A DNA stretch of 64,000 bases from Aquisphaera giovannonii. GTDB taxonomy: Bacteria > Planctomycetota > Planctomycetia > Isosphaerales > Isosphaeraceae. Shown here one piece after another: positions 43,107-48,190 of this stretch (position 1 is its first letter; each line of letters begins with the position of its first letter). The notes below the pieces were generated by a model. That model saw nothing but the letters and a program-made list of their open reading frames with translations, had not been told where the DNA came from and did no database searches. The stretch is from assembly GCF_008087625.1 (NCBI RefSeq), contig NZ_CP042997.1, forward strand, positions 558,001-622,000, written 5' to 3'. A program made the position numbers and the translations under genes.

Positions 43107-43266
43107 GGTGTGCGAGCCGCGGCGAGCGGAGACCGGCCCGGGCCCTCCCGCCGCGATCCGCACTGGCATCCGGCCGCTCGATTGGCTCTAATTCAAGGTC
43201 CTGGCGGACGCCGGCGGAGCGCGCCGGCACGAGATGCGACTCTCCACACACGATGACGGCGGCACC

Positions 43267-44571
43267 ATGAAGCTCGAGACCCTCTGCCTGCACGGCGGCA
43301 CCCAGCCGGATCCGACGACGCTCTCCCGCGGCGTGCCCGTCTACCGGACCAGCTCGTACGTGTTCAAGAACGCCGAGCACGCGGCCAACCTGTTCGCGCT
43401 CCGGGAGCTGGGGAACATCTACACCCGGCTCATGAACCCGACGACCGATGTGCTGGAGAAGCGCGTGGCGCTGCTCGAGGGGGGCCCGGAGCTCGGCGGC
43501 CTGGCGGTGGCCTCGGGGACCAGCGGCATCTTCTACTCGATCATCAACGTCGCCCAGGCCGGGGACAACATCGTCTCGGCCCGCAACCTCTACGGCGGCA
43601 CCTACACCCAGTTCAAGGACATCCTCCCGGCCCTCGGGATCAAGGCGAAGTTCGTCGACTCCCACGACCCGAAGAACTTCGCCGCCGCGATCGACGAGAA
43701 GACCCGTGCCCTGTTCTGCGAGACCGTGTCCAACCCGGCGCTCGACGTCACGGACCTGGAGGCGGTCGCGAAGGTGGCGAAGGAGCACGGGCTCCCGCTG
43801 ATCGTGGACTCGACCTTCTCCACGCCCTACCTGACGCGGCCCCTGGACCACGGGGCGGACGTCGTGGTGCACTCGCTGACGAAGTGGTTCGGCGGGCACG
43901 GGACGGGGATCGGCGGCGTCGTCGTGGACAGCGGCAAGTTCAACTGGGCCGCGGGCAAGCACCCGCTCTACACGACGCCCGACGAGAGCTACCACGGCCT
44001 GCGGTGGGGCATCGACCTCCCCGACATGCTGCGGCCGCTGGCCTTCATCCTGCGGATGCGGACCGGGCCGCTCCGGAACCTCGGGGCGTGCATCGCGCCG
44101 GACAACGCCTGGATGTTCCTCCAGGGGATCGAGACCCTCCCGCTGCGGATGGACCGCCACTGCGAGAACTCCCTGGCCGTGGCGAAGTTCCTGAAGTCCA
44201 GCCCGCACGTCGAGTGGGTGCGCTACCCCGGCCTGGAGGGCGACCCGATGTACGACCTGAACCGCAAGTACCTCCGCGGCAAGGGCGGCTCGATGGTCGT
44301 CTTCGGCATCAAGGGGGGCGCCGCGGCGGGATCCAAGTTCATCGACTCGCTCAAGATGTTCTCCCACCTGGCCAACGTCGGCGACGCCAAGAGCCTGGCG
44401 ATCCACCCGGCCACGACCACGCACTCGCAGCTCGAGGAGCAGCAGCAGCGCGAGGGCGGCATCACGCCGGAGCTCGTGCGGCTGAGCATCGGCCTCGAGC
44501 ACATCGACGACATCCTCGACGACCTCGGCCAGGCGCTGAAGGCGTCGGCCCTGGCCGCCGTCGCGGTCTGA
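43267..44571 (+). CDS. metY: O-acetylhomoserine sulfhydrylase
   Basis: A 434-residue PLP enzyme that makes homocysteine from O-acetylhomoserine and sulfide. Features: CLHGGTQPDPTTLSRGVPVY, YTRLMNPTTDVLEKRVALLE, SGTSGIFYSIINVAQAGDNI, ETVSNPALDVTDLEAVA, and the PLP Lys in VVHSLTKWFGGHGTGIGG. The C-terminal SIGLEHIDDILDDLGQAL is typical. ATG 43267 is used since MKLETLCLHGGT is the family start; the ribosome-binding site is weak. metX follows 139 bp downstream on the same strand, making a direct-sulfhydrylation module for methionine synthesis. Confidence 0.92.
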   Translation: MKLETLCLHGGTQPDPTTLSRGVPVYRTSSYVFKNAEHAANLFALRELGNIYTRLMNPTTDVLEKRVALLEGGPELGGLAVASGTSGIFYSIINVAQAGDNIVSARNLYGGTYTQFKDILPALGIKAKFVDSHDPKNFAAAIDEKTRALFCETVSNPALDVTDLEAVAKVAKEHGLPLIVDSTFSTPYLTRPLDHGADVVVHSLTKWFGGHGTGIGGVVVDSGKFNWAAGKHPLYTTPDESYHGLRWGIDLPDMLRPLAFILRMRTGPLRNLGACIAPDNAWMFLQGIETLPLRMDRHCENSLAVAKFLKSSPHVEWVRYPGLEGDPMYDLNRKYLRGKGGSMVVFGIKGGAAAGSKFIDSLKMFSHLANVGDAKSLAIHPATTTHSQLEEQQQREGGITPELVRLSIGLEHIDDILDDLGQALKASALAAVAV

Positions 44572-44710
44572 CGCGCGGGCGACCCTCGACCCCGCCCCGC
44601 CCCGCCTCGCCCCACGCCGCGTCCCCGGCGCATGCCGCCGCGCAGGGGGCGGGACGCGGGGCGGATCGATTTCCTCCTCCATCGGCCGATCCTCCTGACT
44701 TCGCGGTTTC

Positions 44711-45898
44711 ATGAACGATTCCATCGGCGAGACGCGGACGCAGTTCTTCGAGTACAACGACCCGGCGCATCCCCTGCTGCTGAGGGTCGGGCCGCCGCTG
44801 CCGGCGTTCACCCTGGCGTACGAGGTGTACGGGGAGATGAACGCCGACCGCTCGAACGTGATCCTGCTCTACCACGCCATGACCGGCAACCAGCACGCCG
44901 CCGGCTTCAACCCGGAGGTGCCCGGCCTGGACGGGCGCTGGACCGAGGAGAACCACGAGGGCTGGTGGGACGGGTTCATCGGGCCCGGCAAGGCGCTGGA
45001 CACCGACCGCTTCTGCGTCGTCTGCGCCAACTACCTGGGGGGCTGCTACGGCTCGACCGGGCCGGCGACGGCCCACCCGGCGACGGGCCGGCCGTGGGGG
45101 CCGTCGTTCCCGGTGCTCCGGATGAGCGACATCGTGGACTCGCAGATGAAGCTGCTGGACCACCTGGGCGTCCAGCGGCTGCACGCCGTGGTCGGCGCGT
45201 CGATCGGCGGGTTCCTCGCCCTGCTGACCTCCGCCCGCTACCCCGGCCGGGTGCGGATCGTCTTGCCGATCGGCACCGGGGTGGAGACCTCGATCTATCA
45301 GCGGATCATCAATTTCGAGCAGGTGAACGCGGTCGAGTCGGACCCGAACTTCCGCGGCGGCGACTACTACGACGGGGCGCCGCCCGACCAGGGCCTGGCC
45401 CTGGCGCGGCGGATCGCGCACAAGACGTTCGTGTCCCTGGACACGCTCCGCGAGCGGGCCCGCACCGAGCTGGTCTCCACCAAGCCGCCATACGGCTGGT
45501 ACGAGATGAACCACCCGGTGGAGTCGTACATGCTCCACCAGGGCAAGAAGTTCGTGCGCCGGTTCGACGCGAATAGCTACCTGCGGATCCTCGACGCCTG
45601 GCAGTGGTTCGACCTGGTGTCGGAGGCCGGCGCGACGAGCTTCAAGGACCTCTTCTCCCGCTGCCGCCACCAGGAGTTCCTGGTCTTCAGCATCGACTCC
45701 GACCTGTCGTTCCCGCCCCGCGACCAGGCCAAGCTCGTCCGGCTCCTGAAGCGGGCGGGCGTGCCGGTCATGTGGATCACCGTGCACTCGGAGAAGGGCC
45801 ACGACGCCTTCCTCCTGGAGCCCCGGTCGTTCGCGCCGCATATCCACCAGCTCCTCGAGGACACGAGGACGCCGGCCACGGTGTTCCCGTCGAGCTGA
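44711..45898 (+). CDS. metX: Homoserine O-acetyltransferase
   Basis: A 395-residue alpha/beta-hydrolase-fold enzyme that activates homoserine by acetylation (or succinylation; MetX proteins vary). LLYHAMTGNQHAAG gives the oxyanion region. CANYLGGCYGSTGPAT and GRPWGPSFPVL are family-typical. The nucleophile Ser is in VVGASIGGFLALL near residue 163; many relatives have GGSMGGMQ instead. The catalytic His is in HSEKGHDAFLLE at the end, and Asp is in FSIDSDLSFPP. It pairs with metY immediately upstream. Confidence 0.9.
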   Translation: MNDSIGETRTQFFEYNDPAHPLLLRVGPPLPAFTLAYEVYGEMNADRSNVILLYHAMTGNQHAAGFNPEVPGLDGRWTEENHEGWWDGFIGPGKALDTDRFCVVCANYLGGCYGSTGPATAHPATGRPWGPSFPVLRMSDIVDSQMKLLDHLGVQRLHAVVGASIGGFLALLTSARYPGRVRIVLPIGTGVETSIYQRIINFEQVNAVESDPNFRGGDYYDGAPPDQGLALARRIAHKTFVSLDTLRERARTELVSTKPPYGWYEMNHPVESYMLHQGKKFVRRFDANSYLRILDAWQWFDLVSEAGATSFKDLFSRCRHQEFLVFSIDSDLSFPPRDQAKLVRLLKRAGVPVMWITVHSEKGHDAFLLEPRSFAPHIHQLLEDTRTPATVFPSS

Positions 45899-45921: not shown

Positions 45922-46097
45922 TTGTAGGGTGCGTCTCGACGCACCGCGACCGCCCCGTCCCATGAGGCCAGCCTCGGCCTCCCGCACCTCTCGGGGAGGG
46001 CGAGGCCCTGCCGCCCGGCATCCCGTGCGACGGTACGGGGGGCGTGGTGCGGTTGGCGTGACGGGGCGGTCGCGGTGCGTCGAGACGCACCCTACAA
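45922..46097. repeat. Family-A element with perfect 38-bp terminal inverted repeats
   Basis: Both ends read TTGTAGGGTGCGTCTCGACG followed by CACCGCGACCGCCCCGTC, in opposite orientation, exact over 38 bp. The element is 176 bp without a gene. This is the best-preserved member in the window and resembles a MITE. I did not find a convincing target duplication. Confidence 0.85.
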
Positions 46098-46118: not shown

Positions 46119-46682
46119 TCATTCCCGGCCGATGCCCAGGGAGTCGGCGACGCGGTTGATGTAGTTGAACCAGGAGGCGATGAGGGTGATCTGGAGCCTC
46201 GCCGTGTCGTCGAAGCCGGCGGCGGCGAGCCGCTCGTGGTCGGCGGGGGAGACCTTCGTGGCGTCCTTGGTGAGCTTGACGACGTAGTCCACCATGACCC
46301 TCTCGGCCTCGGTGATCGGCGCCGTCCGGTAGTCCTCGCGAAGCGCCCGGACGAGATCGTCGTCCAGGGTGACCCGACGCAGAAACTCTGCGTGCGAGAC
46401 GATTCAGTAGTGGCACGCGTTCGTCAGCGAGACCATCGTGGCGATCATCTCGTGCTGCCGGCGGCCCAGCGGAAGCGAGGGGGACATCAGCGCCCCGAAG
46501 GTGGAGAATGCGTGGTAGAGCGCGTCCGGGATCAGGGTGTGCGAGGCGACGATGCCGGGAAGGCCCTCCTCGAGCTGGTGGACCGGCTCGGCGTACTCGG
46601 CGGGGTAGAGCACTCGCTGGCGGCCCATCGCGTCGCCCACGCGCGGGTCGTCCTCGGGCAAGACTGTGCGGATCCAGGGCAT
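46119..46682 (-). CDS. AhpD-like peroxidase-related protein, probable selenoprotein (in-frame TGA)
   Basis: The full frame from ATG 46682 (GGGAG eight bases upstream) to TGA 46119-46121 encodes 187 residues, the usual length of the peroxidase-related/carboxymuconolactone-decarboxylase-like group. Residue 93 is encoded by TGA (46404-46406), at the second Cys of the AhpD-type redox motif: [12 protein letters not shown], then the TGA residue, then [10 protein letters not shown]. The expected pattern is ACxxCxxxH, so TGA replaces exactly the catalytic Cys. The sequence after it is fully family-like ([36 protein letters not shown]). A SECIS-like hairpin follows. The protein probably reduces hydroperoxides or carries thiols. 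A nonsense mutation of TGC is the alternative. It follows an APC permease gene by 62 bp. Confidence 0.8.
46377..46406 (-). promoter_or_regulatory. Candidate bacterial SECIS element with selenocysteine TGA
   Basis: After the TGA (46404-46406) come 10 bases, then ACGCAG, the loop AGTTT and CTGCGT: a perfect 6-bp stem (7 bp if the outer loop A and T pair). The loop starts 16 bases after the TGA and has G as second base. That fits the usual bacterial SECIS rules and closely resembles the spacing in E. coli fdhF. Confidence 0.65.
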
Positions 46683-46744: not shown

Positions 46745-48190
46745 CTAGGCCGCGGCGTCTACCTCGGCCGGCTTGCCCTTGCCCCCGCGCCCGGCGAAGA
46801 GGAGCTCGTACGCCGGGATGCCCAGGAGGACCACGCCCAGGCCGATGCCCGTGTGCCGCGGGTTGCCCATCGCCAGCAGGGCCAGTACGGCGGCGGTGGG
46901 CACGAGGAAGAGGACCGGCGAGAGCGGGTACCAGGGCACGGGGAACGCCCCCGCGCCGTCGCGGCGGCGGAAGACGAAGACGGAGGCCACGGCCATCCCC
47001 AGGAAGAGGACCGTCGGCACGACGAAGTAGCCGAGGATCAGGTCGAAGTCCCCCACGACCACCGCCAGCAGGCTGGCGAGCGTGGCCTGGATGAGCGTGG
47101 CCCTCGCCGGCGTGCCGAACCGCGGGTGGATCTCGGCGATCGGCCGGAAGAAGAGGCCGTCGGCGGCCAGGGCGTGATACACGCGGGGCATCGCCATCAG
47201 CAGCGCGGCCAGGCTGCCGAGCACCGCGACCACGACGATCAGGGACAGGACCACGCCCCCGGCGCGGCCGAAGAGGACCTCGCCGGCCTGCGTGGCGAAC
47301 ATCGCGTCGCCGTCGATCGCCCGCGGGTCCACCAGGTAGAGGAAAACCGCGCTGACCAGGATGTAGACGACCGTGACGGCGCCCACCCCCAGGACCATGG
47401 CTCGGGGCAGCGTCCGCCTCGGGTCGCGGACCTCGCCGGCGATCTTGCTCACGTCCCACCAGCCGCTCACCGAGAAGAAGGCCTTGATCATGCCGCCGAT
47501 GAGCGCCGCCGCCAGCGGCCCCGAGCCCGGGCGGCGCTCGACGAGCGGGGCGAAGTGCGACCAGTCGCCGCGAAGCGAGCCGAACCCCCAGACGATCAGG
47601 AAGCCGAGGACGCCGATCTTGATCGCGGCGAGGGCCTTCACCACGCCGGAGCCGAACCGCACGCCCGCGATGTTCACGCCGGCCAGCGCCAGGATCGCCG
47701 CCACGGCGGCCCCGCGGCGGGCCCAGGCGGTCATGGGCACGAGGTAGGCCAGGTGGGTCGCCAGGCCGACCGCCACCGCCGCGGTGATCCCCGGGTCGGT
47801 CACCAGCATGGACAGCCAGCCGTACAGGAAGGCGACCCGCCGGCCGTAGGCCTCCTTCAGGTAGACGTAGATGCCCCCCTCGCGGGGCATCCGGGCCGCC
47901 AGGGCCCCGCAGCAGAGGGCGCCCCCGATCGCCGCGATGCCCATCACGAGCCAGACCGCGAGGATCCAGGCCGGCGAGCCCAGGGCCTTCACCATCCCGG
48001 CCGTGGTGAGGAAGATCCCCACGCCGATCACCTCGGCCACGATCACCGCGGCGGCGGTGGCGAGGCCGAGCTGCCTGGGCAATGCGGCTGCAGGGGCGAG
48101 GATGGAGGCGGACGCGGGATCCGCGCCGGCAACGAAAGCGGGGGCCGTCGCGTCCTCCGCGGCCCCCGGGTCGCTCGAGAGATTCGCCAT
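46745..48190 (-). CDS. APC-family amino acid permease
   Basis: A 481-residue transporter with about twelve hydrophobic segments. The first is the APC signature region (VIVAEVIGVGIFLTTAGMVK). MPREGGIYVYLKEAYGRRVA and KIAGEVRDPRRTLPRAMVLG are typical of amino acid/polyamine/organocation carriers. ATG 48190 was chosen over upstream in-frame codons because it begins the conserved N-terminal region (MANLSS); the N-terminal 40 residues are soluble and acidic. The substrate is unknown. The selenoprotein-like gene follows on the same strand, so co-transcription is possible. Confidence 0.9.
   Translation of the reverse strand: MANLSSDPGAAEDATAPAFVAGADPASASILAPAAALPRQLGLATAAAVIVAEVIGVGIFLTTAGMVKALGSPAWILAVWLVMGIAAIGGALCCGALAARMPREGGIYVYLKEAYGRRVAFLYGWLSMLVTDPGITAAVAVGLATHLAYLVPMTAWARRGAAVAAILALAGVNIAGVRFGSGVVKALAAIKIGVLGFLIVWGFGSLRGDWSHFAPLVERRPGSGPLAAALIGGMIKAFFSVSGWWDVSKIAGEVRDPRRTLPRAMVLGVGAVTVVYILVSAVFLYLVDPRAIDGDAMFATQAGEVLFGRAGGVVLSLIVVVAVLGSLAALLMAMPRVYHALAADGLFFRPIAEIHPRFGTPARATLIQATLASLLAVVVGDFDLILGYFVVPTVLFLGMAVASVFVFRRRDGAGAFPVPWYPLSPVLFLVPTAAVLALLAMGNPRHTGIGLGVVLLGIPAYELLFAGRGGKGKPAEVDAAA

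Follow-up and report, generated by a model that had tools for sequence, protein, structure and literature searches.

The minus strand of the 64,000-nucleotide stretch of Aquisphaera giovannonii DNA that we analysed (the window) carries, from position 46682 to 46119, a gene that almost certainly encodes a selenoprotein of the TIGR01926 branch, in which SelB and a SECIS hairpin would insert selenocysteine (Sec) at the UGA of codon 93. The gene is real and its kind of selenoprotein has already been described, so that no new class is involved; less expected were its frozen SECIS element and the recurrence, in several phyla, of an amino-acid permease gene next to it. The gene has the following features.

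46119–46682, minus strand: predicted coding sequence of a TIGR01926 peroxidase-related (AhpD/CMD fold) selenoprotein of 187 residues, from translation and profile matches
46682–46680, minus strand: start codon ATG
46121–46119, minus strand: stop codon TGA
46404–46406, minus strand: putative UGA selenocysteine codon (Sec93) at the second Cys position of CxxC, from orthologue comparison
46392–46451, minus strand: AhpD-type active-site stretch from Glu78 to His97, including Cys90 and Sec93, from motif spacing

Translation from 46682 to 46119 gave MPWIRTV...NACHY-U-IVSH...GIGRE, 187 residues followed by a stop, and the sole in-frame interruption was the TGA of codon 93, between ACHY and IVSH. An earlier note on this DNA, which named no strand, had described a family-length frame with a single TGA at the second catalytic Cys; this was what the minus strand contained, with the TGA at the second Cys of an E-x11-C-x2-[C/U]-x3-H motif. 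The E-x11-C-x2-C-x3-H spacing is that of the AhpD active site. The 187-residue protein shares it with AhpD of the Mycobacterium type (CxxC) and exceeded the curated cut-off of the AhpD core domain TIGR00778, but it belongs to a longer peroxidase-related branch and would have Sec for the second Cys. It scored 103.5 bits against TIGR01926 (cut-off 81.8) and matched Pfam CMD. Relatives of solved structure, found by sequence, were 2pfx, 3c1l and 2oyo in the PDB, of which 2pfx has Cys at position 93, and E78, C90, position 93 (Cys or Sec) and H97 were invariant in the alignment of relatives (A1). The AlphaFold model was helical, with low confidence (pLDDT 65). The terminal TGA is a true stop, as orthologues end at this position or close to it, with TAG, TAA or TGA. 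Gene calling on the window listed no frame for the full-length protein; genes of this kind are split or truncated by standard callers, and a redox enzyme that is widespread among planctomycetes and acidobacteria of soil is therefore probably misannotated in many genomes.

One TGA in an otherwise intact frame is also what a nonsense mutation or a sequencing error would give in a single genome, leaving a pseudogene or an artefactual codon. In a sample of 45 genomes of the planctomycete family, the window's own included, 15 carried the gene in a form with a single in-frame TGA, in every case at codon 93; the other 14 encoded proteins with 70–93% identity to that of the window. The remaining three of the 18 family orthologues had TGC; all came from one genus (g17), at 63–65% identity, although G027, a sister genome within the genus, had the TGA form. 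Both selA and selB were missing from two of these three Cys-form genomes. The third, G030 (L035, L066), had the Cys form despite retaining both genes, so Sec is not indispensable at position 93. Past the TGA, dN/dS was approximately 0.1–0.3, and constraint was about equal to that on the upstream part.

Relatives in other phyla were collected from genome contigs with two peptide patterns lying away from the TGA, which makes the scan unbiased towards TGA. All 80 of the best loci, those that were kept, had TGA: 77 were read by script and three (L092, L100 and L104), missed by the motif search, by hand. They came mostly from Acidobacteriota, and also from Planctomycetota, Gemmatimonadota, Latescibacterota, KSB1 and one bin labelled Betaproteobacteria; dozens of soil-dwelling bacteria from several phyla thus share the CxxU gene. 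Within the phylum but outside the family the gene was rare, being found at E ≤ 1e-45 in 3 of 293 other sampled genomes (two with TGA, one with Cys). Because of this rarity, gene transfer between Acidobacteriota and Isosphaeraceae is plausible; the tree leaves its direction unsettled. The same TGA in 15 family genomes and 80 multi-phylum relatives, in independent assemblies, together with purifying selection on the frame beyond it and a frozen hairpin (below), excludes a pseudogene or sequencing error. The earlier note had taken the TGA for a genuine Sec codon and not a nonsense mutation, and had proposed to look for Cys or Sec in homologues; the relatives, which keep the TGA and its hairpin or have Cys at codon 93, bear this out.

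The second element of the proposed recoding signal lies immediately past the TGA.

46377–46393, minus strand: predicted bacterial SECIS upper stem-loop ACGCAGA-GUU-UCUGCGU, from the fold, a pair table and codon-conservation ranking

Read as ACGCAG-AGUUU-CUGCGU, the hairpin begins 10 nt past the TGA and its 5-nt loop begins after 16 nt, exactly the geometry reported earlier (a 6-bp stem and a 5-base loop with G); an alternative reading of the same hairpin gives 7 bp and a GUU triloop after 17 nt. The published limits for bacterial SECIS elements, as given in PMC13188914, are a loop of 3–9 nt, a stem of 4–16 bp, a minimum free energy of −7.5 kcal/mol or lower, a G in loop position 1 or 2, and a loop 16–37 nt past the UGA. 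When these limits were applied by hand, the hairpin lay within them, with a stem of 6–7 bp, a stem-alone folding energy of −8.2 kcal/mol, a loop after 16–17 nt, and the G second in the 5-nt loop AGUUU or first in the triloop GUU. Within this one sequence, the hairpin is weak evidence and only moderately unusual: against shuffles, z was −3.0 for a 39-nt stretch but only −1.2 for a 49-nt stretch, and when the sequence was recoded synonymously with local codon usage, 6.6% of the variants formed a similar stem with a G-containing loop. An Rfam scan of the window returned no family match, which is uninformative for such an element.

Conservation across species, in contrast, puts the predicted hairpin beyond chance. 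The triloop GUU was unchanged in all 82 distinct Sec-form sequences, across phyla, and the seven pairs showed only 7 departures in total in these sequences: four A-U to G-U, one C-G to U-G, one G-C to G-U, and one A-C mismatch in the outermost pair. Hairpin codons +4 to +9 occupied ranks 1–6 for codon conservation among 84 protein-conserved positions, with a top-codon fraction of 0.95–1.00 against a median of 0.60. Synonymous variation in 15 family sequences reached its minimum at the hairpin codons (0.10–0.13 vs 0.40 overall), and the codons TTT, GCA and CGT used there are rare in neighbouring genes. The three Cys orthologues lacked the hairpin and had TTC, GCC/GCG/CGG and CGC/AAC at these codons. 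Thus, the scoring of the hairpin proposed in the earlier note came out in its favour, and the element is kept in Sec forms and lost in Cys forms.

Five of the seven pairs join a wobble base to a second-position base, and the other two join first-position bases. This codon phase suggests that the hairpin is frozen because the protein fixes one side of a pair and the pairing fixes the other. Pairing fixed by coding in this way predicts an absence of double compensatory changes, and none was found among the 82 distinct sequences; the support therefore consists of suppressed synonymous variation and single changes that preserve pairing. The case shows why a SECIS can freeze, almost no synonymous change being allowed.

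The Sec machinery is complete. The genes selA, selB, selC and selD, for which the earlier note had suggested a search, are all present in the same 10.5 Mb genome: selA matched at 475 bits, selB at 331 bits (370 with a neighbouring part) and selD at 350 bits, and selC is a tRNA-SeC with anticodon tca. The selD gene is itself a selenoprotein gene.

L048:1501–2430, minus strand: selD, with an in-frame TGA in NCAG-U-AGK

This TGA is at the usual Sec site of SelD. Together with the CxxU gene, it brings the selenoprotein genes of the genome to at least two.

A second CxxU clade (CPYUTGSH and similar; L036–L046), with approximately 35% identity to the first, was found in 12 family genomes. It has Sec at the same site, the TGA having been read directly in 11 genomes and deduced in the twelfth (G033) from stop count and score, and L038 scored above the TIGR01926 cut-off. 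Most members carry a hairpin of their own, CCUGC-AGUU-GCAGG, so that SECIS sequence and position differ from those of the first clade. The two clades never occurred in one genome among the 45 of the family. Of the 32 family genomes that have selA or selB, 27 carried a TGA gene of one clade or the other, compared with none of the 13 that lack both (Fisher p = 1e-7, phylogeny ignored). Comparison across genomes shows that UGA93 is translated and that its recoding goes together with the hairpin and the Sec machinery.

Some bacteria reassign UGA to Trp or Gly, and UGA93 might accordingly be read as another amino acid, through a reassigned code or through near-cognate readthrough to Trp or Cys. However, TGA serves as the terminal stop of window genes and of orthologues of the selenoprotein gene, a dedicated tRNA-SeC and SelB are present, and the alternative residue at the site is Cys; moreover, near-cognate readthrough has no need of a hairpin frozen across phyla. 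We consider such a reading extremely unlikely. A further alternative is that UGA93 serves chiefly for regulated termination, as a switch that responds to selenium and yields a 92-residue product when selenium is scarce. Sec insertion and termination do compete at UGA codons in general, but the 92-residue product would lack half of the protein, including His97 and the second catalytic residue, and constraint on the frame is about equal on either side of the UGA, which makes this role very improbable for UGA93.

In the preferred reading, Sec insertion, a complex of SelB with Sec-tRNA(Sec) and the downstream SECIS hairpin would insert selenocysteine at UGA93, where Sec93 would occupy the place of the second CxxC Cys of other members. 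By analogy with AhpD, Glu78 and His97 may help to activate the Sec/Cys pair; a peroxide or other electrophilic oxidant would be attacked by the Sec93 selenolate, Cys90 would then form a selenenylsulfide with Sec93, and a thiol reductant would reset it. The enzyme would thus use a selenenylsulfide redox centre against peroxides or oxidants like them.

AhpD-like CxxU selenoproteins were first reported from the Sargasso Sea (PMC1088965), with reports in 2005 and 2008, and a TIGR01926 CxxU AhpD-like selenoprotein is a table entry in a 2026 review (PMC13188914). The window protein matches the same NCBIfam model, has Sec as the second residue of CxxC and has its SECIS immediately downstream, and no mechanistic difference from these proteins was found. 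It is also related to the AhpD_rel_CFYUT (seleno)protein NF041238 and the YciW-related (seleno)protein NF053654, with weak matches of 55.8 bits (cut-off 175) and 29.5 bits (cut-off 310), respectively. The examined passages of the papers on CxxU selenoproteins mention neither the Isosphaeraceae/Acidobacteriota clade nor its near-invariant SECIS nor the neighbouring permease.

That neighbour lies directly upstream of the selenoprotein gene.

46748–48190, minus strand: APC-superfamily, L-type-like amino-acid permease, from NCBIfam matches below curated cut-offs; inferred start ATG at 48190

The two genes are possibly co-transcribed. The loci compared for a permease neighbour were the window, L053–L063, L067 and L078–L147. 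Of the 12 other Sec-form family loci with long flanks, 11 had a permease immediately upstream in the same orientation, the exception being L062 (G009). A permease was likewise upstream in 16 loci of other phyla and downstream in three more. Many acidobacterial loci had none in their flanks, and the link is therefore common without being universal. Adjacency across phyla suggests that the permease and the selenoprotein form a functional pair, which, speculatively, deals with an amino acid taken up by the cell or with an oxidised derivative of it. Going further, the permease and the CxxU gene might make up a transferable module of two genes whose selenoenzyme has one particular imported amino acid, or an oxidised or seleno form of it, as its substrate and does not serve general peroxide defence; this we hold to be rather doubtful. 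The permease neighbour offers a testable lead to the substrate of TIGR01926 selenoproteins.

On its other side, the selenoprotein gene is met by metY-metX of the window (43234–45898, plus strand), which converges on it. metY/metX are near the gene in all three Cys-form genomes; in G028 and G030 the gene is followed by a PLP gene that is MetY-like (approximately 33% identical; L064:8816–9913 and L066:8801–9913, respectively). Between metX and the selenoprotein gene lies a perfect 38-nt inverted repeat at 45922–46097, with arms at 45922–45959 and 46060–46097, 100 nt apart. Its 23-nt end occurs in 14 copies in the genome, including five facing pairs 114–151 nt apart, and the repeat is a MITE-like or REP-like element.
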